A DNA stretch of 32,716 nt from NCBI GenBank assembly GCA_003561815.1, contig PWVP01000202.1, forward strand, positions 1-32,716, read 5' to 3'. The stretch's first letter is position 1. Each line of letters opens with the position of its first letter. A model generated the notes under the pieces. It was not told the DNA's origin, did no database searches, and saw only the letters and a list, made by a program, of their open reading frames with translations. Positions 1,354 through 27,684 of this stretch are shown piece by piece. This DNA is from Campylobacterota bacterium. Lineage in GTDB: Bacteria > Campylobacterota > Campylobacteria > Campylobacterales > SZUA-545. Position numbers and translations under genes: made by a program.

Positions 1354-3075
1354 CTAGTAGGTGCGCGCCTGGGGCGTATGCCGCCCCAGCGTGACAGGTG
1401 TATACTCCAGCGCAATTTTCCCTGACGGGTCCATTGTGCCAAAGGTGTGCTGCAAGAAGCGCTCGTCGTTGCGCTCGGGGAAATCCTCCCGGTAGTGCGC
1501 CCCGCGCGACTCTTCGCGGGCCAGTGCCCCCTCGACGATAAAGGCGCTAAAGTCGAGCATGTGCCCAAGCTCAAGCGCCTCTTGCAGATCGGTGTTGTAG
1601 AGTTTGGACTTATCCCCCACGCGCATCTGGCTAAAGCGATCGCGTAGGGTGGCAAGATACGCTTTCTGCTCCAGAAGCGACGCGCGGGTGCGGAAGACAC
1701 CGGCGTTTCGGGTCATGCTCTGCTGCAGATCGGTTCGGATGGCGTGGACGGTATCGGGGCCGTTGTTGCGAAGCAGAGCGCTCACCTCGCCGCTGAGGCG
1801 ATCCGATTCGGTACCGATCGCCTCACGAAGCTCCAGCTGCCCGATATCCTGGACAATCGCCTCGCCCGCACGGCGGCCAAAGAAGATCGCCTCCAGCAGG
1901 CTGTTGGCCCCCAGGCGGTTGGCACCGTGGATGCTGACACAGGCACACTCCCCGGCGGCATAGAGCCCGGAGACTTTGCGCTCGGCACCACTGCGCACCC
2001 GCCCGTCGATATCGGTCGGGATGCCCCCCATGCTGTAGTGGGCGGTGGCGCGGATCAGGATCCGCTCTTTGGCCATATCGCGCCCTAAAAAGGTGATGGC
2101 CAGATCGCGCAGCTCGGGCAGGCGGGTTTCGATAATCTCCTCGGGCAGGTGGGTCAGATCCAGCCAGACCGAGTCTTTATTCGGCCCCACGCCGCGCCCT
2201 TCGAGGATCTCCTTTTCGATCGCACGGCTGACCACATCGCGCGGAGCGAGCTCCATCTTGCTGGGCGCATACTTCTCCATAAAGCGCTCATTTTCGCTGT
2301 TATAGAGGTGGCCGCCCTCGCCCCGGGCCGCTTCTGAGATGAGAATACCGCTACCGGCCAGTCCGGTGGGGTGAAACTGCACAAACTCCATATCCTCCAG
2401 CGGCAGACCGTGGCGCGCCAGAATCGAGAGGCCGTCGCCGGTGTTGGCGTGGGCGTTGGAGTTGATCCCAAAGGCGCGGGCGTAGCCACCGGTGGCAAAC
2501 ATCACCGCTTTGGCGTTAAAGATGGCAAACTCCGTCTCTTTAAGGGAGTAGGCGACCACACCGTAGGCTTGATCGCTGCTTTTATCGTAGAGCAGATCGC
2601 CCACATACCACTCATCAAGAAACTGCACCCCCGCACGGTGGGCCTGTTCGTAGATGGTCTGCAGACAGGTGAGTCCGGTGCGATCTTTGGCGTAGCAGGC
2701 GCGCGGGTGGCTCTGGCCCCCGAAGGGGCGCTGGGCGATCGTGCCATCGTCGTTGCGCGAGAAGACCGCCCCCATGTGCTCGAGCCAGCGGATGGTCTGG
2801 GGCGCTTCGCGGGTCATCAGCTCGATCGCATCCTGATCACCCAGGTAGTCACTGCCTTTAACGGTGTCAAACTCGTGGCTGGCGGTGTCCGATTCGCTTA
2901 AAGCGGCATTGATACCGCCCTGGGCGGCACCGGAGTGGCTGCGAAGGGGGTGGAGCTTGGTCAGAACGACGGTTTTTAGCCCCGCCTCCTGAGCCGTTTT
3001 AGCAGCGGCGCAGCCTGCCAGACCGGCACCGACAATCACCACATCAAACTTGTGTACGGGTGTTCCCATGGGCAA
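1354..3075 (-). CDS. sdhA: Succinate dehydrogenase/fumarate reductase flavoprotein subunit
   Basis: FAD-binding [29 protein letters not shown] (histidine for covalent FAD), [32 protein letters not shown]. Confidence 0.95.
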
Positions 3076-4305: not shown

Positions 4306-5160
4306 TTAGGCGATCTCGGCTAGAAGCCTGCTAGCGCCAATCAGATTGGCCTCATCACCTAGCGTGCTTAGACACACCTCTGCGTGGCTGGCGGGCCCAA
4401 AAGCCCCTTGGGTAGCCTCTTGAGCAGTGGCCAGCAGCCAAGGGTTGTGCGCGATCACGCCACCACCGAGCACCACCCTATCGGGGTTAAAGAGTGGAAG
4501 CAGGGTGGCAATCGCGTGCTTAAGCCCGCGCTCAAAGCGCTTGCAGATCGCCTCTGCCTGGGGGGTGTGCTGCGCTTTTAGTTCTGAAAGGGGCGCTGGC
4601 TTTAATCCCAGGGCGGCACACCAGCACTCAACACCGCTTCCCGATGCGGCAAGCTCCAGACAGCTCTCGCCACCGCATCCGCAGCGAAAGGGGGCGGGCT
4701 CGAAGGGGATATGCCCGATCTCGCCTGCCTGGTTGCCGCTGCCGCAAATGAGCTGCCCCTTCTCAATCAGTGCGCCGCCAAAGCCGGTGCCGATGTAGAG
4801 CACCGCTAGCGCCTGCGCATCTGGATAACACGCCGCCTCGGCCCGGGCTGCGCACTTGAGGTCGTTGTCAATCGCGGCTAGAAGGCCAAAGTTCTCCTCA
4901 AACCACGCCGGTATCGATCGCCCCTGGAGTTCACCGGTGTCGATATTGGGTGCTGAGCAGATGGCGCCGTTTTGGATCTGTCCGGCGAAGCTGATAGCGA
5001 CCCCTTTTAGGGCGGGGTGGCGCTCAAGGCTCTCGGCGGTGAGCCGGTAGAGGGTGGCAGCAAGATCGCGACTGGGGTGGCGGTCAAGATGGTGCGCGCA
5101 CCCCTTTTGGATCACCGCCCGCCGGATATGGGTGCCGCCGATATCGAAGGCTAGCACCAA
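4306..5160 (-). CDS. ROK-family sugar kinase (probable glucokinase)
   Basis: N-terminal VLAFDIGGTHIRRAVI phosphate-binding motif, GTGFGGALI, ROK zinc motif FRCGCGGESCLELAASG. Confidence 0.9.
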   Translation of the reverse strand: MVLAFDIGGTHIRRAVIQKGCAHHLDRHPSRDLAATLYRLTAESLERHPALKGVAISFAGQIQNGAICSAPNIDTGELQGRSIPAWFEENFGLLAAIDNDLKCAARAEAACYPDAQALAVLYIGTGFGGALIEKGQLICGSGNQAGEIGHIPFEPAPFRCGCGGESCLELAASGSGVECWCAALGLKPAPLSELKAQHTPQAEAICKRFERGLKHAIATLLPLFNPDRVVLGGGVIAHNPWLLATAQEATQGAFGPASHAEVCLSTLGDEANLIGASRLLAEIA

Positions 5161-6734
5161 AGCGTAAACTCCTCCCCCTCAAAGAGCGAGTGGCGCTGCT
5201 CCAGCCAGTTTAAGAACCCCTCATCGATCGTCTCCTCTTTGAGCATCTGCTCCAGGCGCAAAAAGTGGCTGATGTGCTCTTTGGTCCGTTTGGTGGCGTA
5301 GTGGGTGGCGGTGGCGGGGGTGATGAGAAAGGCCCAGTCGCTCGATTGGGCCAGCAGAAGCTCCCGGCTCATCTGGTTTAAAAGGCGTCGCTTGGGGCCA
5401 TCGGGCTCGTTTTGGTGGTGGCAGGCGAGTGCGCTGAGCCGATCGGCCATGCGGTGCAGGTGGCGGTAGATCCAGTCGTTGTCGCGGTTGAGCCACACCT
5501 CGTAGTAGCCGTTTTTGCCCCAGCTGGAGGGGGAGGGGTGGATCATCTGGTTGGTCGGATAGCGCTCCAGATAGCCAGCAGGGGTGATCGCCTCCAGGTG
5601 CGGACTCTGGCTGAGGGCGCGAAAGAGGTGGTAGAGAAACTCCGGCCCCTCAAACCACCAGTGGCCAAAGAGCTCCGCATCATAAGGCGAGGTGATCAGC
5701 GGTGGCCGATCCATGTAGTGGCTTAGATGCTCCACCTGCTTTTCGCGGTTGAAGATAAAGTTGTAGGCGTGCTCCTGCGCCCTTGAAAGGGCGGTAGCGG
5801 GGTTGTAGACCGCTTTATCCTCCCCCTCGCCGGTGATACGGTGGTACTTTAGGCCGGTAAAGACACGGGTGCCATCGGGGCAGATGTAGGGCGCGATATA
5901 CGCCATCTCCCGCTCGTAGCCGATGTCGCGGTAGAAGTCGCGGTAGTCAAAGTCGCCGGGGTAGCCCACGATAGAGCTCCACACCTGACGACTGCTCTCC
6001 GGATCGCGCGCAAAGGCGGCCACCCCTTTAGGGGTAAAGATCGGTGCATAGAGCCCAAAGCGGGGCGTGGGGCGTCCGTAGGCCAGGGCGTGTGATTCGA
6101 GGAAGAAGAACTCAATACCCACATCACTAAGCGCCTCATCGAGCCCCTCATAGTAGGCGCACTCGGGCAGCCAGATTCCTCTGGGCGGCACACCGAAGTG
6201 CTTTTTGTGGGTGCGCACCGCAATCTCAAGCTGCACCTGGATGCTTTTGGGGTTGACCGAGAGCAGCGGCAAAAAGCCGTGGGTCGCACCACAGGTGAGA
6301 ATCTCCAGATGTCCGCTTCTGTGCAGCGCGCGGTAGCCATCGAGCACTGAGCAGTTCAGCTCCTGTTCAAAAAACCGCTTGAGCTGCCCAAGCCGCTCTT
6401 GATAGAAGCGGGCGACGGTGTGCAGCTCCCTGTTTTCAGCCAGCCGCTCGCACTCCTTATCGGCCAGCTCGATGAGTTTGTTCAGGTGGCGATCGAACTT
6501 CTCCATCAGGTGGGTGTCCGAAAGCATCTCGCAGAGCGTAGGGGTGAGTGAGACGCTCAGGCAGAAGGGGGTTCCTTCGCGCTTAAGGGCGTTGAGGTTA
6601 ATCAAAAGGGGTAGGTAGCTCTCTAAAATCGCCTCAAAGAGCCAGTGCTCCTCTAAAAAGTAGTCGTGCTCGGGGTGCTTCACGAAGGGCAGGTGGGAGT
6701 GGAGCACCAGCGAGAGATAGCCTTTAGGTTGCAC
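5151..6734 (-). CDS. GH57 1,4-alpha-glucan branching enzyme-like (TK1436/DUF1957 type)
   Basis: LVLHSHLPFVKHPEHDYFLEEHWLFEAI N-terminus, GIWLPECAYYEGLDEAL (nucleophile Glu), ITSPYDAELFGHWWFEGPEFL (acid/base Asp). Confidence 0.9.
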   Translation of the reverse strand: MQPKGYLSLVLHSHLPFVKHPEHDYFLEEHWLFEAILESYLPLLINLNALKREGTPFCLSVSLTPTLCEMLSDTHLMEKFDRHLNKLIELADKECERLAENRELHTVARFYQERLGQLKRFFEQELNCSVLDGYRALHRSGHLEILTCGATHGFLPLLSVNPKSIQVQLEIAVRTHKKHFGVPPRGIWLPECAYYEGLDEALSDVGIEFFFLESHALAYGRPTPRFGLYAPIFTPKGVAAFARDPESSRQVWSSIVGYPGDFDYRDFYRDIGYEREMAYIAPYICPDGTRVFTGLKYHRITGEGEDKAVYNPATALSRAQEHAYNFIFNREKQVEHLSHYMDRPPLITSPYDAELFGHWWFEGPEFLYHLFRALSQSPHLEAITPAGYLERYPTNQMIHPSPSSWGKNGYYEVWLNRDNDWIYRHLHRMADRLSALACHHQNEPDGPKRRLLNQMSRELLLAQSSDWAFLITPATATHYATKRTKEHISHFLRLEQMLKEETIDEGFLNWLEQRHSLFEGEEFTLWC

Positions 6735-7399
6735 TACTTCTCCCGCTTTTTATGCAGCGCTTCACTGCTGAAGTGATCCGGGCTGCCGTGATCGCTCGAG
6801 GGGTTGCTCAGCCCCAATCGAGCGGCGCGCATCTGCTGTTGTTGACGATCGAGACTCTGATCGAGACTGCTGGGCGCTCCCAGGCTCTCTGGTGGGGGCC
6901 CTTGCTGCTCCTTCTGGGTTCGGGTGAGCCCCTCCTGGCCTTTGGTGATCCAGATCTCCCACGGGCTGCTGTGGGTGGTGCCTGAGGGGGTGGTGATGAT
7001 GGCGGACTCCAGCAGAACGCACCGCTTGCCCTCCTGGGTGCCAATCAGCCGTGCCTGGAGCTTTTGGAAGTTGAGATCGTGGTAGGTGTAGGTGCTGCCG
7101 CTTAAGTGGCTGATCTCAACCGCCTCAATCACCCGCTCACCGGGCTCTGGCAGCAGAAGCTCCAGTTGCAGATGCACAGAGCTATCATTAAAGTGGCGGC
7201 GGATCTCGTCGCGCTCGATGTGCCAGTAAAGGTGCTGGGTGCGGGGATTCACCGGCAGTAGGACCAGCCGGTTTTGGTTGTAGCTCTCCGGTAGCGCGAT
7301 CTGATCGCCGGCGATATCGGGGGCCGGTTCGTGGGGGGTCAGCCCCTCATCGGAGGAGCCGCCGGGCTCTTGTTGGGGTATGAGCGGATCGTAAGGCAT
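6734..7399 (-). CDS. DUF4912 domain-containing protein
   Basis: LPESYNQNRLVLLPVNPRTQHLYWHIERDEIRRHF and PSGTTHSSPWEIWI resemble DUF4912 proteins; lies inside the GH57 operon. Confidence 0.75.
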   Translation of the reverse strand: MPYDPLIPQQEPGGSSDEGLTPHEPAPDIAGDQIALPESYNQNRLVLLPVNPRTQHLYWHIERDEIRRHFNDSSVHLQLELLLPEPGERVIEAVEISHLSGSTYTYHDLNFQKLQARLIGTQEGKRCVLLESAIITTPSGTTHSSPWEIWITKGQEGLTRTQKEQQGPPPESLGAPSSLDQSLDRQQQQMRAARLGLSNPSSDHGSPDHFSSEALHKKREK

Positions 7400-7402
7400 C
7401 GC

Positions 7403-8434
7403 TTATCCTTTCTCCGGGGGTGCCGGAAGTTCGCGCAAGAAGTGTGCATACTCTTCAGGCGGTGTGGGGTTAATATAACAACCACTGGAGAGCTCAAACC
7501 CATCACGCGCCTCAAAGCGGGGCACGATCGCCACATGCCAGTGGAAAAAGTGCTCGAGGTGGTGAAAGTAGTTTGGCTTCGGATGGGGCCGTTTGGGTGG
7601 GGCGCTGACGAGGGTGAGGTTGAGATCGGGATCCTCAAGTGCCAGAGCCAGACGGCCGAGAATCCACTCGCTCGCCTCGGCCAGATCACCTAGCGCGTCG
7701 CTGCTAAGCTGTTCAAAGTGGCTCTCATGGCTCAAAGGCACAATCCACACCTCAAACTCAAAGCGGGGGGCAAAGGGGGCAAAAACCAGAAAGTGGCGGT
7801 TGCGATAGAGGATGCGGCTCTGATCGGCCTCTTCGCTCTCGAGCATGTCGCACACCAGGCACCGCTCATGGTGGTTATAGTGGCGCCTGGAGGCGTCGAT
7901 AATCCGCTCGGTCGCCGGGGGGATAAAGGGGAGCGCGACAATCTGCGAGTGGCTGTGCGGGATGGTGTTGCCCGCCTTCATCCCCTGATTTTTAAAGGCG
8001 TGGATGTGGGCGATCCGTCCATCTTTGCTCAGCGCTTCGATCCGATCGCGAAAGCTCTGATAGAGCGCGCGCAGATTTTTTTGGTCGAAGTGGCAGAGGT
8101 GGGTGGTCGCTTTGGGGTGATCGATCACCATCTCATGGGCCCCAAACCCGCCAATAATGGAGTAAAACCCCCGCTTGGCCCGCTTAAGGGGCGCCTCTAG
8201 TTTTAGTAGCGGAAAACGGTTGGCAAAGACGCGCGTGAGCCAGGAGGCGGTGATGCGGGGATTTTCGCGAACGGCGTAGATCTCAGGCGGTGTGCGCTGC
8301 TCCTGGCCGTGGATAAAGGGATCGTTAATCGCCGCCGGTGGTGGAGAGCCGGGCGAAAAGGCGGGGCGCTTGGCCCGGTTGGGGGCGATAATCACCCAGG
8401 TGTCATAGAGCATCTGGTGGCGAAACTCGTTCAT
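7403..8434 (-). CDS. GalT-like nucleotidyltransferase (HIT superfamily; galactose-1-phosphate uridylyltransferase or ADP-glucose phosphorylase-like)
   Basis: RHQMLYDTWVIIAPNRAKRP N-terminus; active-site NTIPHSHSQIVALP; C-terminal HIT-like region FAPFAPRFEFEVWIVPLSHESHF and NYFHHLEHFFHWHVAIVPR. Confidence 0.85.
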   Translation of the reverse strand: MNEFRHQMLYDTWVIIAPNRAKRPAFSPGSPPPAAINDPFIHGQEQRTPPEIYAVRENPRITASWLTRVFANRFPLLKLEAPLKRAKRGFYSIIGGFGAHEMVIDHPKATTHLCHFDQKNLRALYQSFRDRIEALSKDGRIAHIHAFKNQGMKAGNTIPHSHSQIVALPFIPPATERIIDASRRHYNHHERCLVCDMLESEEADQSRILYRNRHFLVFAPFAPRFEFEVWIVPLSHESHFEQLSSDALGDLAEASEWILGRLALALEDPDLNLTLVSAPPKRPHPKPNYFHHLEHFFHWHVAIVPRFEARDGFELSSGCYINPTPPEEYAHFLRELPAPPEKG

Positions 8435-10428
8435 TCTCCCTCCTTGATGCCAAGCTCAACCGTGACGCGGTGGCGCGTCTTGGGCTTAAAGAGCAGATAG
8501 AGTGCTATCTGCTGGCAGGTGCGCTCCAGTCCCGCCTCACTCTGGCTGATGGTGTAGATGGGGTGGCTATAGAGCCCAAAATCCAGATCGGCATCCAGGC
8601 AGATGGTTTGATTCAGCCACGGGCAGTAGAGGCGCACCTGACGGGTGGCTGCGATCGCGATCGGCTCAAGCGCACCCTGGCCGTTAAGGGTAAGCCGATC
8701 GGGGTTGGCGAAGTGAAAGTTGTGCGCCTGCAGGTAGGCCGACGCTTCGGGCAGATCCAAAGCGGTCTCCACCCGCAGACGATCCCCTTTAAGGGCGACT
8801 CGCTTCTGGCAGGTGAGGGCATCGGCTTTGGCTTTAAAGGTGGCTTTTGCCTCCATCAGTGCCCCCTCTTGTGTGGCCTGGAGGCTAAACGAGCGCTCAC
8901 AGAGATCGCTATAATCCTCAAAACTCTGAGCAAAGAGCGTGTCGCTATCGACGCTCTCGACCAGGTGATCGATAAAGCTGTGGCGCGGGTAGCGATCGTA
9001 GATGAGGTGCTTGAGCGCCTCCTGATCGGCGCTGAGTGCCGTATCGTGGATGGTGGCGGGCTGCTCACCCTGCTGGGTATCGTGCCCGGCAGTGATCTGG
9101 GCGTGGTACGCCTCTTCGCGCCGCATCAGGGTGTTGAGCAGATTGAACCGCTTAGAGAGGATGTGCAGCTCACTAAGGCTTCCACCCTTTTCGGGCTCAA
9201 AACCGGCGATGAGCTTCCGGCTGCGCAGACGAAGCTGCTTCGCGCCGTTCATCTGCCAGTCCCTTATCTCACACGGCGTCTGCTTGAGCGCCATCTCCGC
9301 TTCGATCAGGTAGCGCCAGGCGGTATCGCGCAGACTGGGCAGATAGAGCCCCCCGAAAACGCCGTGCCAGAGGACATCATTGCACTGCGCTTTGGCGATG
9401 GCCGACTCGAAGGCGGGATTTTTGCGTTTGGGGCGCTGGTTACACAGATCGAGCATCCGGCGGTGGATGCGCCCGCTCTCGGAGTAGCGCACCAGGAAGT
9501 TTTTCCAGGTGGCCCCACGGGTGAAGCGCTCCGCCTCATCCTCCAGCCCCATCTCGCCAAGCGCGTGCTTGAGGTGTGCCAGTCGCTGGTGCTCGGCCGG
9601 ACGCAGGCTCCACTCCCCCATCTCATAGTAGGAGACATCGGGCGGGTAGAGCATCCCCAGCGGGCGGTGCTGATCGAAGTAGTCGCAATAGAGCCCCGCT
9701 TCGATCGCCGGATGGGCCAGAGTCGCTTCGATAAAGGCGCGCAGCCACCCCTTCTCATAAACCCATTCATGGGTTCCCGGCCACACCCCAAACTTCTCGC
9801 CATCATCAAAGATTACCGCCGCGCCGCTTTGGCGGGTGAGGGTCTCTATCACCTCTTCGTGCTTCCAGAAGGGAACCTGGTAGCGCAGCGGCTTGCTGAT
9901 GGGAAAGAGCCCCAGCGATCGACCACCGCTTTCGGTGAGGTAGTAGCCGTTGAGCGCTTCGCGGGCTAAACCGGTACAGAGCAGGTGGTAGTCGTCGACA
10001 ATCACATACTCGATGCCCGCCTCGACCAGATCGGTGATAATCGATCCGTCATAGACCCGCTCGGTCAGCCAGAGCCCCCGGGGGCGCTGATCGAAGTGGG
10101 TCTGGATAAAATCACTCAACATCGCAATCTGCTTTTGGCGATCGGCGGGGGGGATAGCGGCTAGAATCGGCTCATAAAACCCCCCGGTAAACCACTCGAT
10201 CTGCCCGCGGCGGCTCATCTGCGCCATGAGTGAAAAGAGCTCAGGATCGTGCTGCTGGATAAACTCCAGCAGCCAGCCGCTGTAGTGGGCGCTAAAGCGA
10301 AACTCAGGGTACTCAAAGGCCACCTCAAAAAAGGGGCGATAGGAGCGTGCCGTCGCCTCTAAGACCACATGATCGAAGTTGTCAATCGGCTGGTGGGAGT
10401 GAACCCCCAAAAGGAGTGTTGTGTTCAT
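8431..10428 (-). CDS. GH57 alpha-amylase / 4-alpha-glucanotransferase-like, with DUF1925/DUF1926-type C-terminal domains
   Basis: LLLGVHSHQPIDNFDHV; GLWLTERVYDGSI (nucleophile Glu); IFDDGEKFGVWPGTHEWVYEKGWL (Asp); long C-terminal beta-rich region. Confidence 0.9.
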   Translation of the reverse strand: MNTTLLLGVHSHQPIDNFDHVVLEATARSYRPFFEVAFEYPEFRFSAHYSGWLLEFIQQHDPELFSLMAQMSRRGQIEWFTGGFYEPILAAIPPADRQKQIAMLSDFIQTHFDQRPRGLWLTERVYDGSIITDLVEAGIEYVIVDDYHLLCTGLAREALNGYYLTESGGRSLGLFPISKPLRYQVPFWKHEEVIETLTRQSGAAVIFDDGEKFGVWPGTHEWVYEKGWLRAFIEATLAHPAIEAGLYCDYFDQHRPLGMLYPPDVSYYEMGEWSLRPAEHQRLAHLKHALGEMGLEDEAERFTRGATWKNFLVRYSESGRIHRRMLDLCNQRPKRKNPAFESAIAKAQCNDVLWHGVFGGLYLPSLRDTAWRYLIEAEMALKQTPCEIRDWQMNGAKQLRLRSRKLIAGFEPEKGGSLSELHILSKRFNLLNTLMRREEAYHAQITAGHDTQQGEQPATIHDTALSADQEALKHLIYDRYPRHSFIDHLVESVDSDTLFAQSFEDYSDLCERSFSLQATQEGALMEAKATFKAKADALTCQKRVALKGDRLRVETALDLPEASAYLQAHNFHFANPDRLTLNGQGALEPIAIAATRQVRLYCPWLNQTICLDADLDFGLYSHPIYTISQSEAGLERTCQQIALYLLFKPKTRHRVTVELGIKEGE

Positions 10429-10429
10429 T

Positions 10430-12532
10430 TTATATGTACCATAGGGCGTTAAACTCCGGCATCTTTAGACTTAGGGCGCGATAGAGCGGGATGCGCTGGA
10501 TCAAGGTCTCCTGCCGGTAGAGCATAAAGGCGACATCGGGGGTCTCCTGCGGATCGTCGATCGGATCGAGCAGTTTAATCTCCAGACAGCTCCGCATGGC
10601 CGCCTCCAGATGATCGCTGCATTGGGCGGTGGCGAGCTTTTTAGGATCGAGCTTGAGCCGCCGCTGGCTTTTGTGGCGTCCGCCCAGCTCGATCTCGAGC
10701 AGATAGTCACCGCTTTCGAGGCGATCGATATTGCCCTGTAGCTGGAAAAAGAAGTGGCGTCCGTCGGTGCCATAAAGCAGTGTCTCAAAGATCGCCCCCG
10801 AGCTGTCCATCGCCGAAAAGGCGCGGGTGAGATCGAGTCGGCCCGCACCCATCCACTCAAAGTAGCTGCTCTGATAGCCGTCGATACGCGGGGAGATGGG
10901 GGCTGAGGGGGCGATGAGGTCGCTTGTCTGGGGGTCGACCTGCTTGATCGCCTCATCAAGCACTTTGGGCGGTTTTTTGCCAAGCAGGTGAAAGACCTGG
11001 CGCAGATGGCTTCGAAAGAGGGCATCAAACTCAGAGGCCAGCGGCGTGTAGTGATCGTCGCCAAACCACCAGAACCAGTCGCTGCCTTCAGCGATGAGGA
11101 GCGCCTCCTGGATCGCTTCGGCCTTTTGGGTATCGAGCGACTCGGCCGCCTGGGTGGCCGCCTCTTTGGTCATGGCCAGCAGCTCCCAGGCGCGGTTTTT
11201 CTCCGCGTGGCCCATCCAGGTGGAGAGTGAGCCGTAGATCCAGCTGCCCGGCTGCAGACTCTGCAGACTCCGGGGGTGGAGCTGTTCTTGCTCAAACGCC
11301 TCGGGTACGGTGATGGCCTGACACCAGGGTGCCTTTTCGATCCGCTCATACAGGGCGTTGAAAAACTCAAAGCCGTTGTTCTGATAAAACTCCCACGCAT
11401 TCTCCCCATCTAAAAAGACCGAGACCAGCGGGTTAAAATCGCAGCTCTCATGGATCGCTTTGAGTTTGGCCATAAAGTCATCGGCAGCGTGCTGGGGATC
11501 GAACGAGGCGTAGTTAAAGCCGATCAGATCGCTTAGCGCCTTATCCCGAAAGAGCATCCCGATGGGGCCTTCGGGGGTTTCGAGTCGATAGGGGCGGTAG
11601 AGATCGCTTCGCTGGTGGGGCCCATCCAGGCTCTTAAAGAGAATATCCTCATCGGTGCAGGCGTAGGGGATGGATCGGCTGGCCAGCAGCGCCATCGCCT
11701 TTTCGCTCACTGCCCCCTCTGCTGGCCAGAAGCCCGGCGGCGGAGCGTCAAACTGCTCACGATACCACGAAGCGGCGCGGTCGACCTGGGTGGCCGCATC
11801 GTCGCTGAAATCGCACCAGCGCTTCGGAGTCTCAATCTGGCCATCGGAGGCTTTGGCCGCTTTGAGATCGAGCAGAAGTGGTAAAATCGGGTGATAAAAG
11901 GGGGTGGTAAAGATGGCGATCTGACCCATCTTCTGCGCCTCTTTGTAGCGCTTGGGGATGCTGGCACAGAACGCCACCAGCACCTCAATCAGCCGCTTTT
12001 TCTCCTCCTGGGTAAAACGCGAACCCTTCTTGATCAGCGATTTGACGGTGGGCTCTTCGCGGCGAAGCAGATTGCCGCACCAGGCGAGCAGGAAGAGTAC
12101 CGCCAGATCGGTGAGCTCCTGATCGTCAAAGTGGCGCACCGCCTCCTCGGCACTCTCAAATCGGCTTCGCTTCTCATAGAGCGCCTGATAGCCCCAAAGG
12201 GGCGCAATCATGGTCTGGGGATTGGCAAAAAACCCCTTCTCCAGCAGCGCAGCCTTCTCCTTCTCATCAAGGCTCTGCGCCTCTTTAGCCAGAAGGTTCA
12301 GGAGCCGATCGTGCTGCCACCCTTTGGGGTAGGCCTCAAGCTGCACCATCAAAGAGGGGACCAGATTGTAGGTGGCCTTTAGGCCGGGAAAGTGGCTCTG
12401 GATCCAGGGCAGCTCGGCGTAATCTTTGATGGCGTGGAGAAAGACCCACGGCATGAGACTCTCCTGGCTGCCCCCCTCACGGTACCAGGGTTGGTGCATG
12501 TGCCACAGCAGGGTCAGATAGAGGGTTTTCAT
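10430..12532 (-). CDS. GH57 amylopullulanase-like glycoside hydrolase
   Basis: LYLTLLWHMHQPWYREGGSQESLMPWVFLHAIKDY; GFWPAEGAVSEKAMALL; VFLDGENAWEFYQNNG. Start moved from 12556 to internal ATG 12532, which overlaps the upstream stop as ATGA. Confidence 0.9.
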   Translation of the reverse strand: MKTLYLTLLWHMHQPWYREGGSQESLMPWVFLHAIKDYAELPWIQSHFPGLKATYNLVPSLMVQLEAYPKGWQHDRLLNLLAKEAQSLDEKEKAALLEKGFFANPQTMIAPLWGYQALYEKRSRFESAEEAVRHFDDQELTDLAVLFLLAWCGNLLRREEPTVKSLIKKGSRFTQEEKKRLIEVLVAFCASIPKRYKEAQKMGQIAIFTTPFYHPILPLLLDLKAAKASDGQIETPKRWCDFSDDAATQVDRAASWYREQFDAPPPGFWPAEGAVSEKAMALLASRSIPYACTDEDILFKSLDGPHQRSDLYRPYRLETPEGPIGMLFRDKALSDLIGFNYASFDPQHAADDFMAKLKAIHESCDFNPLVSVFLDGENAWEFYQNNGFEFFNALYERIEKAPWCQAITVPEAFEQEQLHPRSLQSLQPGSWIYGSLSTWMGHAEKNRAWELLAMTKEAATQAAESLDTQKAEAIQEALLIAEGSDWFWWFGDDHYTPLASEFDALFRSHLRQVFHLLGKKPPKVLDEAIKQVDPQTSDLIAPSAPISPRIDGYQSSYFEWMGAGRLDLTRAFSAMDSSGAIFETLLYGTDGRHFFFQLQGNIDRLESGDYLLEIELGGRHKSQRRLKLDPKKLATAQCSDHLEAAMRSCLEIKLLDPIDDPQETPDVAFMLYRQETLIQRIPLYRALSLKMPEFNALWYI

Positions 12533-15033
12533 GCCTCTTCGGTTCCCTGTTTCCACTGGGCGATTTTGGTCGCATACTCGATAAGCAGCCGGTTGCCGCT
12601 CTCCTCATCGGCCGACTGGATATAGAGGTGGATCATCTCCTCGTACTGATCGGGCACCATCACCACGAAGCCGCCACTATGTATGATCTTCACCCCATCG
12701 GCGAAGCTCACCTCTTTACCCATCGCCTCTTCGCTAAAGCGGCGCATCATGGTGCCCTTCATCGACAGATCGCACGGGATCTGCTGGTGGGCGAAGTGGT
12801 AACGCCCGCTTGCGGTGAGCAGATCGTCCAGGCGGCTGGCATGGCACGAGAGCATCTCGACAATCTTCACCGCTGCAAACATCGCATCGAAGTTGAGCCC
12901 GAAGCGGGTGAAGGCAAACTGGTTATCCAGTGTCGCCACCAGATCGTACTCGGCGATATCCTTAGCTGAGAGGTTGTGCATTTTGCCCCGGGTGATGGTG
13001 AGGTTTTTGAGTTTGCTATCACACACATCCGGTGCGCTGACGGGCAGGTAGACACGGCACCCCTTCGGGTGGCACTGATCGAGCAGCTGCAGGACAATCA
13101 AAAGCGCCTCGTGCCCCTCCAGTCGCCGCCCGGTTTCGGTGATAATCTCGAGCCGCTGACCGTGGGGGTAGATCAAAAAGCCCGCGCTCATGTGCAGCGT
13201 GCGAACAATCTGGCTGATATTGATCCGCGCCTGATCGAGGTGGCTGGGCAGCTTAGAGAGCTTCTTGTCATCAAAGTAGGCGTTTAGGATCACATTCTCC
13301 ACGCCAAGGCTGTTAAGCAGGGTGGGAAAGACCATGGTGGTGTTGCCATAGAGCAGATCGACGGCGATCTTGGGCTTGGCAGCGACCAGCTTCTCGCCAT
13401 CGATCTGCTCGGTAAAGCCGGCGATATACTCTGCTCCCAGTGTGTGCGCTTCGTAGATGCTGCCGAGATCCTCTCCGCCTACGCGGCGGAAGTTTTCGCG
13501 AAAGAAGATCCGCTCACAGCTCTTTTCTACCGAGCTGTTAACCGCCAGCCCGTGCTCATCATAAAAGAGGATCTCCGTCTGCTGGGCGCAGCTCTCTGAC
13601 TGGCGGAAGTGGACACCGGCCAGCACCTCGGGGCGTTGACTCAAAGAGTGGCGCAGCACCGCTGAGGGGACGAAGTGGGGGTTGAGAATATCCACCCCCG
13701 CGCTCATCAGGCCACTCATAAAGGCGCGCTTGAGCATCCGGGAGGCTTTGTGGTAGTCGCGGCTGACATAGACTTTGGCCCCCACTGGCAGGTTGCTGGC
13801 AAAGGCGGCAGCCAGCTTGGTGGCCATCTCGCAGGAGAGCTCGATGTTGGTGCGTCCTTTGACCTGTCCGCCTTCGAAGAGGCTCTTTTTATACTTATCG
13901 CCCCAGATGACATTGCTGCTCACCACAGCGGCATCCTCGATCGCCTTTTTAGGCCAGATGATCACATCTTTTTCGATCAAAACCCCTTTGCCCAGCTCGC
14001 ACGCTTCGGCGACGATCGCCCCTTCGCGCACCATACACTTCTTTTCCAGGGTGTTGTCGTTGCACAGCAGGGTGTTGTTCAGCTCAGACTGCTCGCCGAT
14101 GCGTACCCGCTCCCAGAGGGTGCACTCTTCGAGTTTGACCCGCCGATCGATCACCGAGTGATCGCCAATCACGCTGTTTTTCAGCGTGACGGCTTTGCCC
14201 AGTTTGACGCTCTGTCCGATGACGGCGGTCCCTTCGATGCTCAGATCCTTCGGCAGGGTGGTCTCACTCTGGACATAGGCGACCCCTTCGCCCACTTTGA
14301 CCCGTTTGCCCGGCAGGGTGACGCCGGTTTTGAGGTTGAGAATATCGTTGATCGCCTCACGGTAGCTCTGCGGATTGCCCACATCCCGCCAGTACCCTTT
14401 GGCGTTATGGCCCCAGAGGGTGATCCCCTCTGCCATCAGCTTAGGGAAGAGATCTTTGGAGAAGTCGTAGTTGCTGTTTTCGGGGATGTGCGAGAGGATT
14501 TCCGGCTCGCACACATAGATGCCGGTATTGATGGTGTCGCTAAAGACCTCCCCCCAGCCGGGCTTCTCTAAAAAGCGCTGGATCTCGCCGCGCTTATCGG
14601 CGATCACCACCCCAAACTGCAGCGGGTCGGCCACCGAGGTGAGGGTGATGGTGAGTTTTGATTTGCGCTCTTCGTGAAAGGCGATAATCTTCTCAAAATC
14701 AAAATCGGTGATCAGATCGCCGCTGACAATCACAAAGGGCTCATCCAAAAGCCCCTCCGCCTTTTTAACCGCTCCGGCGGTGCCGTAGTCATCATCGGGC
14801 AGCACATAGTCGATCTTGATCCCCAGTCGGCTGCCGTCACCAAAGTGCTCTTTGACCACTTCGGGTTTGAAGTAGAGCAGCACCACAAACTCCTGAATAC
14901 CGACCGCTTTGAGTTGGAGCATGATATGCTCCATCATTGGGCGGCCCACCACCGGGAGCATCGGTTTGGGGAGTGAGTTGGTTAATGGTTGGATGCGGGT
15001 GCCAAATCCCCCCGCCATAACGACTGCCTTCAT
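12529..15033 (-). CDS. Sugar-nucleotidyltransferase (mannose-1-P guanylyltransferase/NTP_transferase) - left-handed beta-helix - phosphoglucomutase/phosphomannomutase-like fusion
   Basis: N-terminal MKAVVMAGGFGTRIQPLTNSLPKPMLPVVGRPMMEHI; hexapeptide-like repeats around residues 240-390; C-terminal alpha-PGM-like region with degenerate motifs. Confidence 0.88.
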   Translation of the reverse strand: MKAVVMAGGFGTRIQPLTNSLPKPMLPVVGRPMMEHIMLQLKAVGIQEFVVLLYFKPEVVKEHFGDGSRLGIKIDYVLPDDDYGTAGAVKKAEGLLDEPFVIVSGDLITDFDFEKIIAFHEERKSKLTITLTSVADPLQFGVVIADKRGEIQRFLEKPGWGEVFSDTINTGIYVCEPEILSHIPENSNYDFSKDLFPKLMAEGITLWGHNAKGYWRDVGNPQSYREAINDILNLKTGVTLPGKRVKVGEGVAYVQSETTLPKDLSIEGTAVIGQSVKLGKAVTLKNSVIGDHSVIDRRVKLEECTLWERVRIGEQSELNNTLLCNDNTLEKKCMVREGAIVAEACELGKGVLIEKDVIIWPKKAIEDAAVVSSNVIWGDKYKKSLFEGGQVKGRTNIELSCEMATKLAAAFASNLPVGAKVYVSRDYHKASRMLKRAFMSGLMSAGVDILNPHFVPSAVLRHSLSQRPEVLAGVHFRQSESCAQQTEILFYDEHGLAVNSSVEKSCERIFFRENFRRVGGEDLGSIYEAHTLGAEYIAGFTEQIDGEKLVAAKPKIAVDLLYGNTTMVFPTLLNSLGVENVILNAYFDDKKLSKLPSHLDQARINISQIVRTLHMSAGFLIYPHGQRLEIITETGRRLEGHEALLIVLQLLDQCHPKGCRVYLPVSAPDVCDSKLKNLTITRGKMHNLSAKDIAEYDLVATLDNQFAFTRFGLNFDAMFAAVKIVEMLSCHASRLDDLLTASGRYHFAHQQIPCDLSMKGTMMRRFSEEAMGKEVSFADGVKIIHSGGFVVMVPDQYEEMIHLYIQSADEESGNRLLIEYATKIAQWKQGTEEA

Positions 15034-15109: not shown

Positions 15110-16756
15110 CTACTCATCATCGTTGTAAAGTTTTACATAGTACTCGTTGGCCATCCGCCCGGAGTCAAAGGCGGGGATGAGGTCGCTAATACACCGCTTC
15201 ATCATATCCACCCATTTTTGGGGCTGATCGTAGTAGATGGGGATAATCTCATCTTCGATCATCTCCATCAGATTCTGGTTATCGATGTAGTCCTGCTCTT
15301 CGGTGGGCAGATCGGGGCTGACAGCCGGTAGCGTAAAGGCGTTTTCGCCGTGTTGGGCAAACTCCGGGTGCCACCCATCGGGAACCGAGAGGTGCAGCGC
15401 GCCGTTCATCCCCGCGGTCATGCCACTGGTCCCGCTCGCTTCGCGGGTAATACGCGGCGTATTGAGCCAGATATCGGCCCCCTTTTTCAGCATCCGCGAA
15501 AGGGAGAGCTCGTGACCCACCATCACAGCGCACCGCTTCATGTCGCGGGTGAGGTGAACCATCTCGTTAAAGAGGTTGATCGAGGCAGAGTCAGCCGGGT
15601 GGGGCTTGCCCGCCCAGATCACCTGGATGGGCCGTTCGCTGCGCTCGACCAGATTGCAGAAACGCTCAAAGTCGTGCACAATCAGCCGTGCGCGCTTGTA
15701 CTCCACAAACCGCCGCGCCCAGACGATGGTGAGAACATTGGGATCAAAGAGCTTACCGGTCTGATCGGCCACCTCATCAAAGAGCAGCCGTTTAAGGTGC
15801 TTTTTGCGGGCGATAACGGCGAAATCCTCCCCCTCCTCAAAGGCGCGCAAAATCCCCTTATCAGCCCAGTAGCGGCGATTTTGGGCGTTGGTGATCGACA
15901 GGATCTGATCGGGGCGATCGAGGTGCTCTTGCCACATCTCGTTGGCCACACGGGCGTGGATCTTCGAAACGGCGTTGGTCTTTTTAGCCAGATGGATCGC
16001 TCCGACGGTGAGGCTGAAGCGATTGCTCTCCTGGCGGGTGATGGACTTGACCTCTTCGATCGGTGTGTCGCAGAAGAAGCCCATTCGCGATAGGAGGTTG
16101 ATATCGTGCTCCTCGTTGCCCGCCATCTCGGGGGTGTGGGTGGTAAAGACCACCTGCTTGCGAACCGCCTCGACACTTTTATGCTTCTGATAGAGGTGAA
16201 ACGCCATCGGCAGGGCGTGCCCCTCGTTCATGTGGTAGATGTCCGGGCTCTCACCGGCAGCCTCTAGCACCCGTGCGCCACCGATACCGAGTACAATCTC
16301 CTGGGCAATCCGCGTCTCCTCGCCCGCATCGTAGAGCTTGTGGGTGATGGTGCGGGTCAGAAAGTCGTTTTCGGGCAGATCGGTGGTGAGCAGATAGATG
16401 GGGGCTGACTGGAAGGTCTCCGGGCGCAGCAGCAGCGCTTTGACCAGAATCGGTGCTTTATTGATGGTGATCTGTACGGTGATGCCGGTCTCCTCTAAAA
16501 AGGAGTAGTGCTTGCGCCGAAAGTGCACACCCATCGTCCGATCTTCGCGCCGCTCCTGATTGTAGTAGCCGTAGCTCCAGAGGATGCCGACACCGATCAG
16601 GTTCTGTTTTAGATCAAAGGCGCTGCGCATATGGCTGCCCGCCAAAAAGCCCAGTCCGCCGGAGTAGATTTTGAGCGCCTGATGGATACCAAACTCCATA
16701 GAGAAGTAGGCCACCTTGGTTTGGTATTTGGGATCGATTGCGTAGGGAAACTGCAC
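15110..16756 (-). CDS. glgP: Alpha-glucan (glycogen) phosphorylase family protein, GT35-like
   Basis: KVAYFSMEFGIHQALKIYSGGLGFLAGSHMRSAFDL, HMNEGHALP, FTTHTPEMAGNE, EASGTSGMTAGMNGALHLSVPDGWHPEFA. GTG start with AGGAGG SD. Confidence 0.88.
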   Translation of the reverse strand: MQFPYAIDPKYQTKVAYFSMEFGIHQALKIYSGGLGFLAGSHMRSAFDLKQNLIGVGILWSYGYYNQERREDRTMGVHFRRKHYSFLEETGITVQITINKAPILVKALLLRPETFQSAPIYLLTTDLPENDFLTRTITHKLYDAGEETRIAQEIVLGIGGARVLEAAGESPDIYHMNEGHALPMAFHLYQKHKSVEAVRKQVVFTTHTPEMAGNEEHDINLLSRMGFFCDTPIEEVKSITRQESNRFSLTVGAIHLAKKTNAVSKIHARVANEMWQEHLDRPDQILSITNAQNRRYWADKGILRAFEEGEDFAVIARKKHLKRLLFDEVADQTGKLFDPNVLTIVWARRFVEYKRARLIVHDFERFCNLVERSERPIQVIWAGKPHPADSASINLFNEMVHLTRDMKRCAVMVGHELSLSRMLKKGADIWLNTPRITREASGTSGMTAGMNGALHLSVPDGWHPEFAQHGENAFTLPAVSPDLPTEEQDYIDNQNLMEMIEDEIIPIYYDQPQKWVDMMKRCISDLIPAFDSGRMANEYYVKLYNDDE

Positions 16757-26034: not shown

Positions 26035-27684
26035 TTAGTTTGTGAGATAGCGCCGCAGGGTGTGGAGCCACCGTTTGGGTCCCTTTAGGGGGAGCAGCTC
26101 CACCTGCAGGTGGTGGCCCGATGCGCGCCGAAGCAGACTGATAAGCGGCTCGTGGCGATCGGGGTAGTCGGTGCGGGTGTGGCTGCCGCGCGATTCGTGC
26201 CGGTGCAGTGCCGAAAAGACCATCGCTTCGGCGATATGCAGCGCGTTTTTCAGCTCCAAAATCGCCGTCAGCTCGACATTGCCCTCGGGGGTTTTATCGA
26301 TGCAGTGCAGCCCGCCGGTGAGCCCCTGAAGGTACTCGATATACTCCAGTGCATCTAAAAGCCCCGCCTCATGGCGAAAGATCCCCGCTTTATCCATCAG
26401 GGCGCGCCCCAGGCTTTTTCGGATGGCGCCGGTGTTGAAACGGTTTTCGCCCTCCAGATGGTAGGCAACCAGCGCGCGATCGGCGCGCAGATCCTCATCG
26501 GCAATCGTCTCGGGGGCTTTGGGCCGCCCCGAGGCGGCACGGGTGCCAATCAGGCGACCAAAGGCGACCGCCTCGAGCAGGCTGTTGCCCCCCAGGCGGT
26601 TGGCCCCGTGTACGCCGCTGCAGGCGCACTCACCGCAGGCGTAGAGCCCTTTGATGCCAGTCTGCCCCTGGGCGTTGACGACGATACCTCCCATGGTGTA
26701 GTGGGCTGCCGGGGCGATCTCTACCAGTTCGCGGGTGACATCGACCCCTTTTTTGATGGAGGCGGCACGCATAAAGGCGGGCAGACGGCGCTCAATCACC
26801 GCCGGATCGAGGTGGCGCACATCGATATAGACCGGACTGTTGGCCAAGATGCGCTTAGCAATCGCTCGCGAAAGGCGATCGCGGGTCTGAAGCTCGTCGG
26901 TAAAGCGTTGCCCCTCGCCATCGACCAGATAGCCCCCTTCGCCCCGTACCGCCTCTGAGACCAGCTCGCCTGAACCGGCCAGTGTGGTGGGGTGAAACTG
27001 CACAAACTCCAGATTGCTCAGCTCCAGACCCGCTTTGAGTGCCGCAGCCAGCAGATCGCCGGTGGTGCTAAGAGGGTTGGTGGTGTAGCCGGCGTAGATA
27101 CCCCCAAACCCGCCGCCAGCGAGCACTACCTCTCTGGCGGCAATCGCTTCGACGCTGCTTTTTTGTTGATTGAGCAGCGTGACGCCGGTGATGGCGCCGC
27201 GCCGGTGTGAGAGGCTCAATAAAAAACGCTGGGTTAAAAAGACCACCCCCGCTTCGCGGCAGGCGCGCATCAGGGCCTGTGTCAGCGCTGCGCCGGTTCG
27301 ATCGGCGACAAAACAGGTTCGCTTTTTGCCGGTGCCGCCGAAGCTGCGCTGGGCAATGCGACCCTCTTTATCGCGATCGAATCCGGCACCGAGCTTCTCC
27401 AGCCACTCGATGGTGCGCGCCCCTTCGGCACAGAGGGTGTGTGCCAGCGTCTCATCCGCCAGGCCGTCGGCCCCTTTTATGGTGTCTGCGGCGTGCTCTT
27501 TAGGGGAGTCCTCTTCGGTGTGGGCCAAAGCGGCGTTGATGCCGCCACTGGCCATGGCGCTGTTGCTCCGAAGGGGGTTGCCTTTGGTGATGACCACCAC
27601 CGATCGCTTCGCATCACGGGCGGCCAGAGCGGCACTCAGCCCGGCCAGACCGGTGCCGACAACCAGCACATCGCAGCTCTGCAC
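26035..27684 (-). CDS. FAD-dependent L-aspartate oxidase / fumarate reductase-succinate dehydrogenase flavoprotein family protein
   Basis: CDVLVVGTGLAGLSAALAA, LRSNSAMASGGINAAL (Asn in place of the flavinylating His), FHPTTLAGSGELVSEAVRGEGGYLV, HYTMGGIVV, GANRLGGNSLLEAVAFG. Confidence 0.85.
   Translation of the reverse strand: MQSCDVLVVGTGLAGLSAALAARDAKRSVVVITKGNPLRSNSAMASGGINAALAHTEEDSPKEHAADTIKGADGLADETLAHTLCAEGARTIEWLEKLGAGFDRDKEGRIAQRSFGGTGKKRTCFVADRTGAALTQALMRACREAGVVFLTQRFLLSLSHRRGAITGVTLLNQQKSSVEAIAAREVVLAGGGFGGIYAGYTTNPLSTTGDLLAAALKAGLELSNLEFVQFHPTTLAGSGELVSEAVRGEGGYLVDGEGQRFTDELQTRDRLSRAIAKRILANSPVYIDVRHLDPAVIERRLPAFMRAASIKKGVDVTRELVEIAPAAHYTMGGIVVNAQGQTGIKGLYACGECACSGVHGANRLGGNSLLEAVAFGRLIGTRAASGRPKAPETIADEDLRADRALVAYHLEGENRFNTGAIRKSLGRALMDKAGIFRHEAGLLDALEYIEYLQGLTGGLHCIDKTPEGNVELTAILELKNALHIAEAMVFSALHRHESRGSHTRTDYPDRHEPLISLLRRASGHHLQVELLPLKGPKRWLHTLRRYLTN

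Follow-up and report, generated by a model that had tools for sequence, protein, structure and literature searches.

The window, the whole analysed stretch of 32,716 nucleotides from a Campylobacterota bacterium, encodes on its minus strand (open reading frame 15110-16756) a GT35-type protein of 548 aa (NCBIfam TIGR02094) that lacks the lysine to which PLP is attached. Judged by its sequence and its gene neighbourhood, this protein has an even chance of being an active glycogen enzyme of a monophyletic Lys-less GT35 subfamily, which would occupy the phosphorylase position of the pathway and operate without the canonical PLP aldimine. The motif, the clade, its conservation, the genome content, and the gene order are shown directly, whereas the activity, the direction of the reaction, and the state of the cofactor are inferred. 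In approximately one-sixth of the genomes sampled from this phylum, the encoded "glycogen phosphorylase" lacks the residue defining PLP attachment, and where the Lys-less protein is the sole GT35, the assigned activity is putative. If active, the enzyme would show the GT-B frame working without a PLP aldimine, or with a nucleotide replacing PLP—and the idea that phosphorylases arose from NDP-sugar enzymes would become testable.

Family assignment and the missing lysine

The window protein belongs to GT35 by its match to TIGR02094, "alpha-glucan family phosphorylase" (454.2 bits; cut-off 191.7), and is likewise a member of Pfam Phosphorylase PF00343 (57.3 bits; cut-off 27). It falls outside GT5, scoring 39.3 bits against the glgA family TIGR02095 at a cut-off of 328. 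The gene and the codon in question are as follows:

15110-16756, minus strand: CDS of the Lys-less GT35 protein, 548 aa, GTG start, TIGR02094 match
15416-15418, minus strand: codon ACC of Thr447 at the PLP-lysine position (E. coli MalP K646), from translation and alignment

The translation contains NTPRITREASGTSGMTAGMNGALHLSVPDGWHPEFA, and Thr447 is the eighth residue past Glu439 in the motif EASGTSGMTAGMNG. In the multiple alignment, residue 447 stands opposite K646 of E. coli MalP, the lysine carrying PLP (review PMC11046441). The original prediction of a Thr in place of the PLP lysine, at about residue 447 and 15416-15418, is hence borne out by both translation and alignment. The aldimine lysine of EASGTxxMK, which marks PLP-dependent phosphorylases, is missing from the window protein and from all 70 clade members, which feature Ser, Thr, or Ala.

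The probability that a sequencing, assembly, or alignment artefact explains the missing lysine is practically nil. The assembly of the window is fragmented into 268 contigs, as such an artefact would have it, but the same state occurs in 68 distinct homologues of the phylum—many of them in single-contig assemblies—and on two annotated plasmids, a recurrence that refutes this explanation. A single sequencing error is excluded because no fewer than two bases would have to differ between ACC and AAA or AAG, Thr (codons ACC or ACG) is likewise found at 447 in the four nearest orthologues, and Lys is absent from 70/70 clade members; the earlier suggestion that no sequencing error is involved stands.

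Distribution, phylogeny, and selection

The genome sample consists of 398 genomes of the window's phylum, and counts are raw, with related genomes each counted. A GT35 protein of either type occurs in 74 of the 398; genome G053, with only a broken remnant of a long-type GT35, lies outside the 74. The short Lys-less type of approximately 545 aa is present in 69 genomes and the Lys-bearing paralogue of approximately 710 aa in 17, the two being about 33-43% identical across matched segments. The window protein itself shares about 32-34% identity with Lys-bearing TIGR02094 members. Position 447 is Ser in 37, Thr in 29, and Ala in 2 of the 68 distinct short sequences from the phylum, and Lys in 17/17 long sequences.

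Spread beyond the phylum was assessed on plasmids. This search yielded two further short-type proteins, from the Bacteroidota Runella rosea and Pontibacter actiniarum (52-56% identity, Thr in each case), together with 13 relatives that bear Lys and come from other lineages, which brings the Lys-less state to 70/70 short-type proteins (Ser 37, Thr 31, Ala 2) versus Lys in 30/30 other TIGR02094 proteins compared. Viral contigs gave no match when scanned with the single window protein and one distant relative (29% identity) when scanned with the alignment; a search of the accessible literature found no paper on a Lys-less GT35. Plasmid-borne Lys-bearing GT35 genes encoding 560-620 aa (L101, L103, L104, L106, L108, and L112) occur in Chlamydiota, Cyanobacteriota, and Pseudomonadota, and their neighbours are mostly phosphoketolase, type II GAPDH, DUF1622, MerR, and metal-transport genes rather than glycogen genes. 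In Runella rosea, a pyridoxamine-5'-phosphate oxidase family protein (PF12900; L099:13642-14082) lies 31 bases past the Lys-less gene; this neighbour is probably incidental, though notable given the PLP question.

The Lys-less proteins form a single clade with a support of 100/100 and a long stem. This monophyly, together with the lack of Lys in 70/70 members, strongly supports the original proposal of a real subfamily. Comparison with three same-family orthologues gives a dN of about 0.16-0.17 and a dS of >2.7 (saturated), which indicates that the Lys-less gene is under strong purifying selection.

Active-site residues

Invariant in Lys-less and Lys-bearing proteins are G33-G34-L35-G36; N177-E178-G179-H180; H207-T208; N290; W297; R348-R349; Y353-K354-R355; E439-A440; G442-T443; and N451. 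Among them are the likely counterparts of the glycine loop, His377, Asn484, Trp491, Lys568/Arg569, Lys574, Glu672, and Thr676 of glycogen phosphorylase (GP; rabbit numbering), presumably the contacts of glucose, substrate phosphate, and PLP phosphate. The phosphate and glucose sites—GGLG, the Arg/Lys pair, H377, N484, and E672-ASG-T676 in GP numbering—are therefore all present and invariant. The positions of interest, placed by alignment, are the following:

15401-15442, minus strand: motif EASGTSGMTAGMNG, residues 439-452, with glucose-contact E439-ASG and PLP-phosphate T443 kept
15485-15487, minus strand: Lys424 codon; Lys in 70/70 of the clade, with V/I/T/L/F at this position in the 30 Lys-bearing relatives; candidate for a substitute lysine in the pocket
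15497-15499, minus strand: Ser420, Ser in 70/70 of the clade and Ala in 28/30 Lys-bearing relatives; one turn ahead of K424
15509-15520, minus strand: loop V413-G414-H415-E416; [VI]GYE in the clade, IGY/VGY in GlgA, [EP][DN]Y in Lys-bearing GT35
15692-15715, minus strand: phosphate-binding motif R348-R-F-V-E-Y-K354-R355 (MalP K534/R535/K540), with R349 and K354 invariant
15866-15868, minus strand: Trp297 (GP Trp491 equivalent), invariant in all GT35 compared
16130-16144, minus strand: TTHTP with His207 (GP His377 equivalent), invariant
16217-16228, minus strand: NEGH, residues 177-180
16649-16660, minus strand: GGLG, residues 33-36, glycine loop of the phosphate site

MalP K534 and K540, which are PLP-phosphate ligands (PMC11046441), align with R348 and K354 of the window protein. 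In the clade, position 447 has S/T/A in place of K646, residues 413-415 read [VI]GY rather than [EP][DN]Y, 420 has S for A, and 424 has K for V/I/T/L/F. With the phosphate contacts kept, the changes thus cluster around the ring side of the cofactor pocket, and the phosphate side is preserved. His415 of the window protein (15512-15514, minus strand) is Tyr in 69/70 clade members and in all Lys-bearing GT35 compared (GP Tyr648 equivalent).

The nearest solved proteins, 9l6i and 20yr, are TIGR02094 phosphorylases of GT35 and share the fold family and the glucose and phosphate motifs with the window protein. However, they read EASGTSGEKAEMNG with Lys where the clade has S/T/A, and most of their N-terminal DUF3417 region is missing from the clade, whose pocket is rebuilt on the ring side. 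E. coli MalP/GlgP and animal GP (TIGR02093/PF00343) are very distant in sequence but share the GT-B fold and conserve H207, N290, R349, K354, E439, and T443; MalP has PLP on K646, where the window protein has Thr447.

One sub-case of the active-enzyme reading would be a PLP phosphorylase of the usual kind whose anchor has shifted: the aldimine would form on K424, which lies on the helix opposite the lost lysine. The invariance of K424 in the clade, opposite V/I/T/L/F in the 30 Lys-bearing relatives (I623 in MalP), fits such a move, as do its position four residues past S420—presumably the equivalent of GP Ala653, which lines the PLP ring—and the kept pocket residues W297 and Y415. Yet K424 lies approximately two helical turns in and may fall short of PLP C4', and it is not uniquely coupled to the loss, since K82, R69, K318, E210, Q292, and W346 are further clade-specific invariants. 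A relocated anchor is, hence, distinctly unlikely. Another lysine in the PLP site, which the original prediction itself named as a finding that would refute it, could conceivably be K424: invariant in the clade and hydrophobic or Thr elsewhere, this residue is placed on the helix beside the ring pocket.

For an active glycogen enzyme without the canonical aldimine, the terminal glucose would be bound by the kept GT-B groups E439-ASG, H207, and N290, and the phosphates by G33-G34, R348/R349, K354, and T443. A canonical PLP aldimine would be impossible with Ser, Thr, or Ala at residue 447. The likeliest mechanism would be a retaining glucosyl transfer between glycogen and phosphate, in which the function of the second phosphate may come from PLP held without K646, from PLP on K424, or from a free anion. 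Phosphorylase with a reduced Schiff base keeps its activity, and pyridoxal-reconstituted phosphorylase is activated by free anions; the aldimine itself is therefore not the catalytic group. GT4 trehalose phosphorylases are also retaining GT-B phosphorylases and are not known to require PLP. They belong to another family and use another substrate than the window protein, and hence serve as precedent only; in their case, phosphate itself is described as the proton donor (PMC8950772).

Operon and genome content

The genes around the Lys-less gene are the following:

12529-15033, minus strand: fusion of sugar-1-phosphate nucleotidyltransferase and phosphogluco/mannomutase, directly downstream of the GT35 gene; conserved neighbour
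10430-12556, minus strand: GH57 family protein
8431-10428, minus strand: GH57 alpha-amylase/4-alpha-glucanotransferase type protein
7403-8434, minus strand: GalT-like uridylyltransferase
6734-7399, minus strand: DUF4912 protein
5151-6734, minus strand: GH57 1,4-alpha-glucan branching enzyme
4306-5160, minus strand: ROK-family sugar kinase

The window also holds two SdhA/FrdA-like flavoproteins, at 26035-27684 and 1354-3075 (minus strand), the former scoring 493 bits against TIGR01812 and so remaining under the cut-off of 567.

The fusion protein (NTasePGM) has 834 aa, with NTP_transferase/left-handed-helix and phosphogluco/mannomutase domains, and is a core member of the operon. A common gene order is SHORT-NTasePGM-GH57-GH57(4-alpha-glucanotransferase type)-GalT, where SHORT is the Lys-less and LONG the Lys-bearing gene; PGI-SHORT, PGM-PGI-SHORT, and PGI-SHORT-NTasePGM are seen as well. 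Four genomes have LONG-PGM-PGI-SHORT-NTasePGM-GH57, loci L090 and L091 read LONG-PGM-PGI-NTasePGM without SHORT, and at loci L092 and L093 NTasePGM directly follows LONG. The Lys-bearing and Lys-less genes can therefore each stand upstream of one shared cluster, and PGM and PGI, the mutase and isomerase using glucose-1-phosphate and its product, accompany both. That a normal Lys-bearing paralogue can take its place in the operon speaks for a phosphorylase-type role of the Lys-less protein, although a shared operon position is not proof of the same reaction for both GT35 types. Hydrolytic use of glycogen by the GH57 enzymes and the ROK kinase could make a phosphorylase unnecessary.

GlgA is present in 69/69 genomes with the Lys-less gene and in 74/74 with either GT35 of the phylum sample, compared with 1/324 genomes without GT35. 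Many glycogen-storing genomes of the phylum have two GlgA genes, often adjacent, with a ROK kinase or GlgB nearby. Classical GlgC was found in none of the 60 genomes checked at E 1e-60 or better, and NDP-glucose for GlgA therefore probably comes from another nucleotidyltransferase, such as the NTasePGM of the operon.

The Lys-less protein is the only GT35 in 57 genomes: a TIGR02093 search of these gave nothing above the family cut-off, and its weak matches coincide with the Lys-less genes (coordinates compared by eye). Twelve genomes keep both types, which are therefore probably not fully redundant. These pairings—four of them in one operon—and the lost cofactor lysine are what a non-catalytic glycogen-binding or regulatory homologue would lead one to expect. 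However, none of the residues contacting glucose or phosphate varies among the 70 sequences, and in the 57 genomes there is no other GT35 to regulate, so that a pseudoenzyme is highly doubtful and the purely regulatory role entertained in the original prediction is disfavoured.

Relation to GlgA and polarity of the lysine

The protein might instead be a nucleotide-dependent alpha-glucan glucosyltransferase, glycogen-synthase-like on a GT35 frame, in which the PLP site would hold the NMP moiety of NDP-glucose or, for the reverse reaction, NDP; this is possible, though not probable. The PLP-independent transferase and the synthase-like activity of the original prediction are likewise conceivable but unproven. 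The phosphate-site residues are kept while the ring side is rebuilt (S/T/A at 447; at 413-415 the [VI]GY also seen in GlgA; Ser for Ala at 420). The [VI]GY loop and the neighbouring NTase could be a sign that nucleotide sugars are used; the NTasePGM fusion commonly adjoins the Lys-less gene, and classical GlgC is absent from the 60 genomes. It would also fit the proposal that, in a proto-GT35 enzyme, PLP replaced a nucleoside monophosphate (PMC11046441). Against it, every Lys-less genome already has GlgA, many in two copies, and in some genomes it is the Lys-bearing paralogue that this NTase follows.

Bacterial GlgA (GT5) shares with the clade the GT-B frame, the conserved Arg/Lys pair and Glu, and the [VI]GY loop, but T443 and R348 of the window protein are phosphorylase-like and unlike GlgA, which is encoded by a separate gene. 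Diagnostic columns that resemble GlgA in the clade alone number 4, against 12 that do so in Lys-bearing GT35 alone, and the GlgA profile similarity of the clade (E 2e-6) is weaker than that of Lys-bearing GT35 (E 3e-11). A general closeness of the Lys-less clade to GlgA is rejected on these comparisons, and the presence of GlgA rejects the Lys-less protein as the only glycogen synthase.

A nucleotide-dependent Lys-less GT35 might have arisen by reversion or be left over from the proposed NDP-sugar-using GT35 ancestor. That the clade is a PLP-free, nucleotide-using GT35 branch, perhaps a survivor of the NDP-sugar-dependent ancestor of PLP phosphorylases, is rather unlikely. The test does not reject a rooting on the Lys-less branch (p-AU 0.09), and the program issued a warning that long branches meet. 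When GlgA serves as the outgroup, the root of GT35 falls on the E. coli MalP/GlgP branch in the best tree, which would place the loss of the lysine within the Lys-less clade; lysine loss within GT35 appears as the simpler reading and is the one preferred by the rooted tree.
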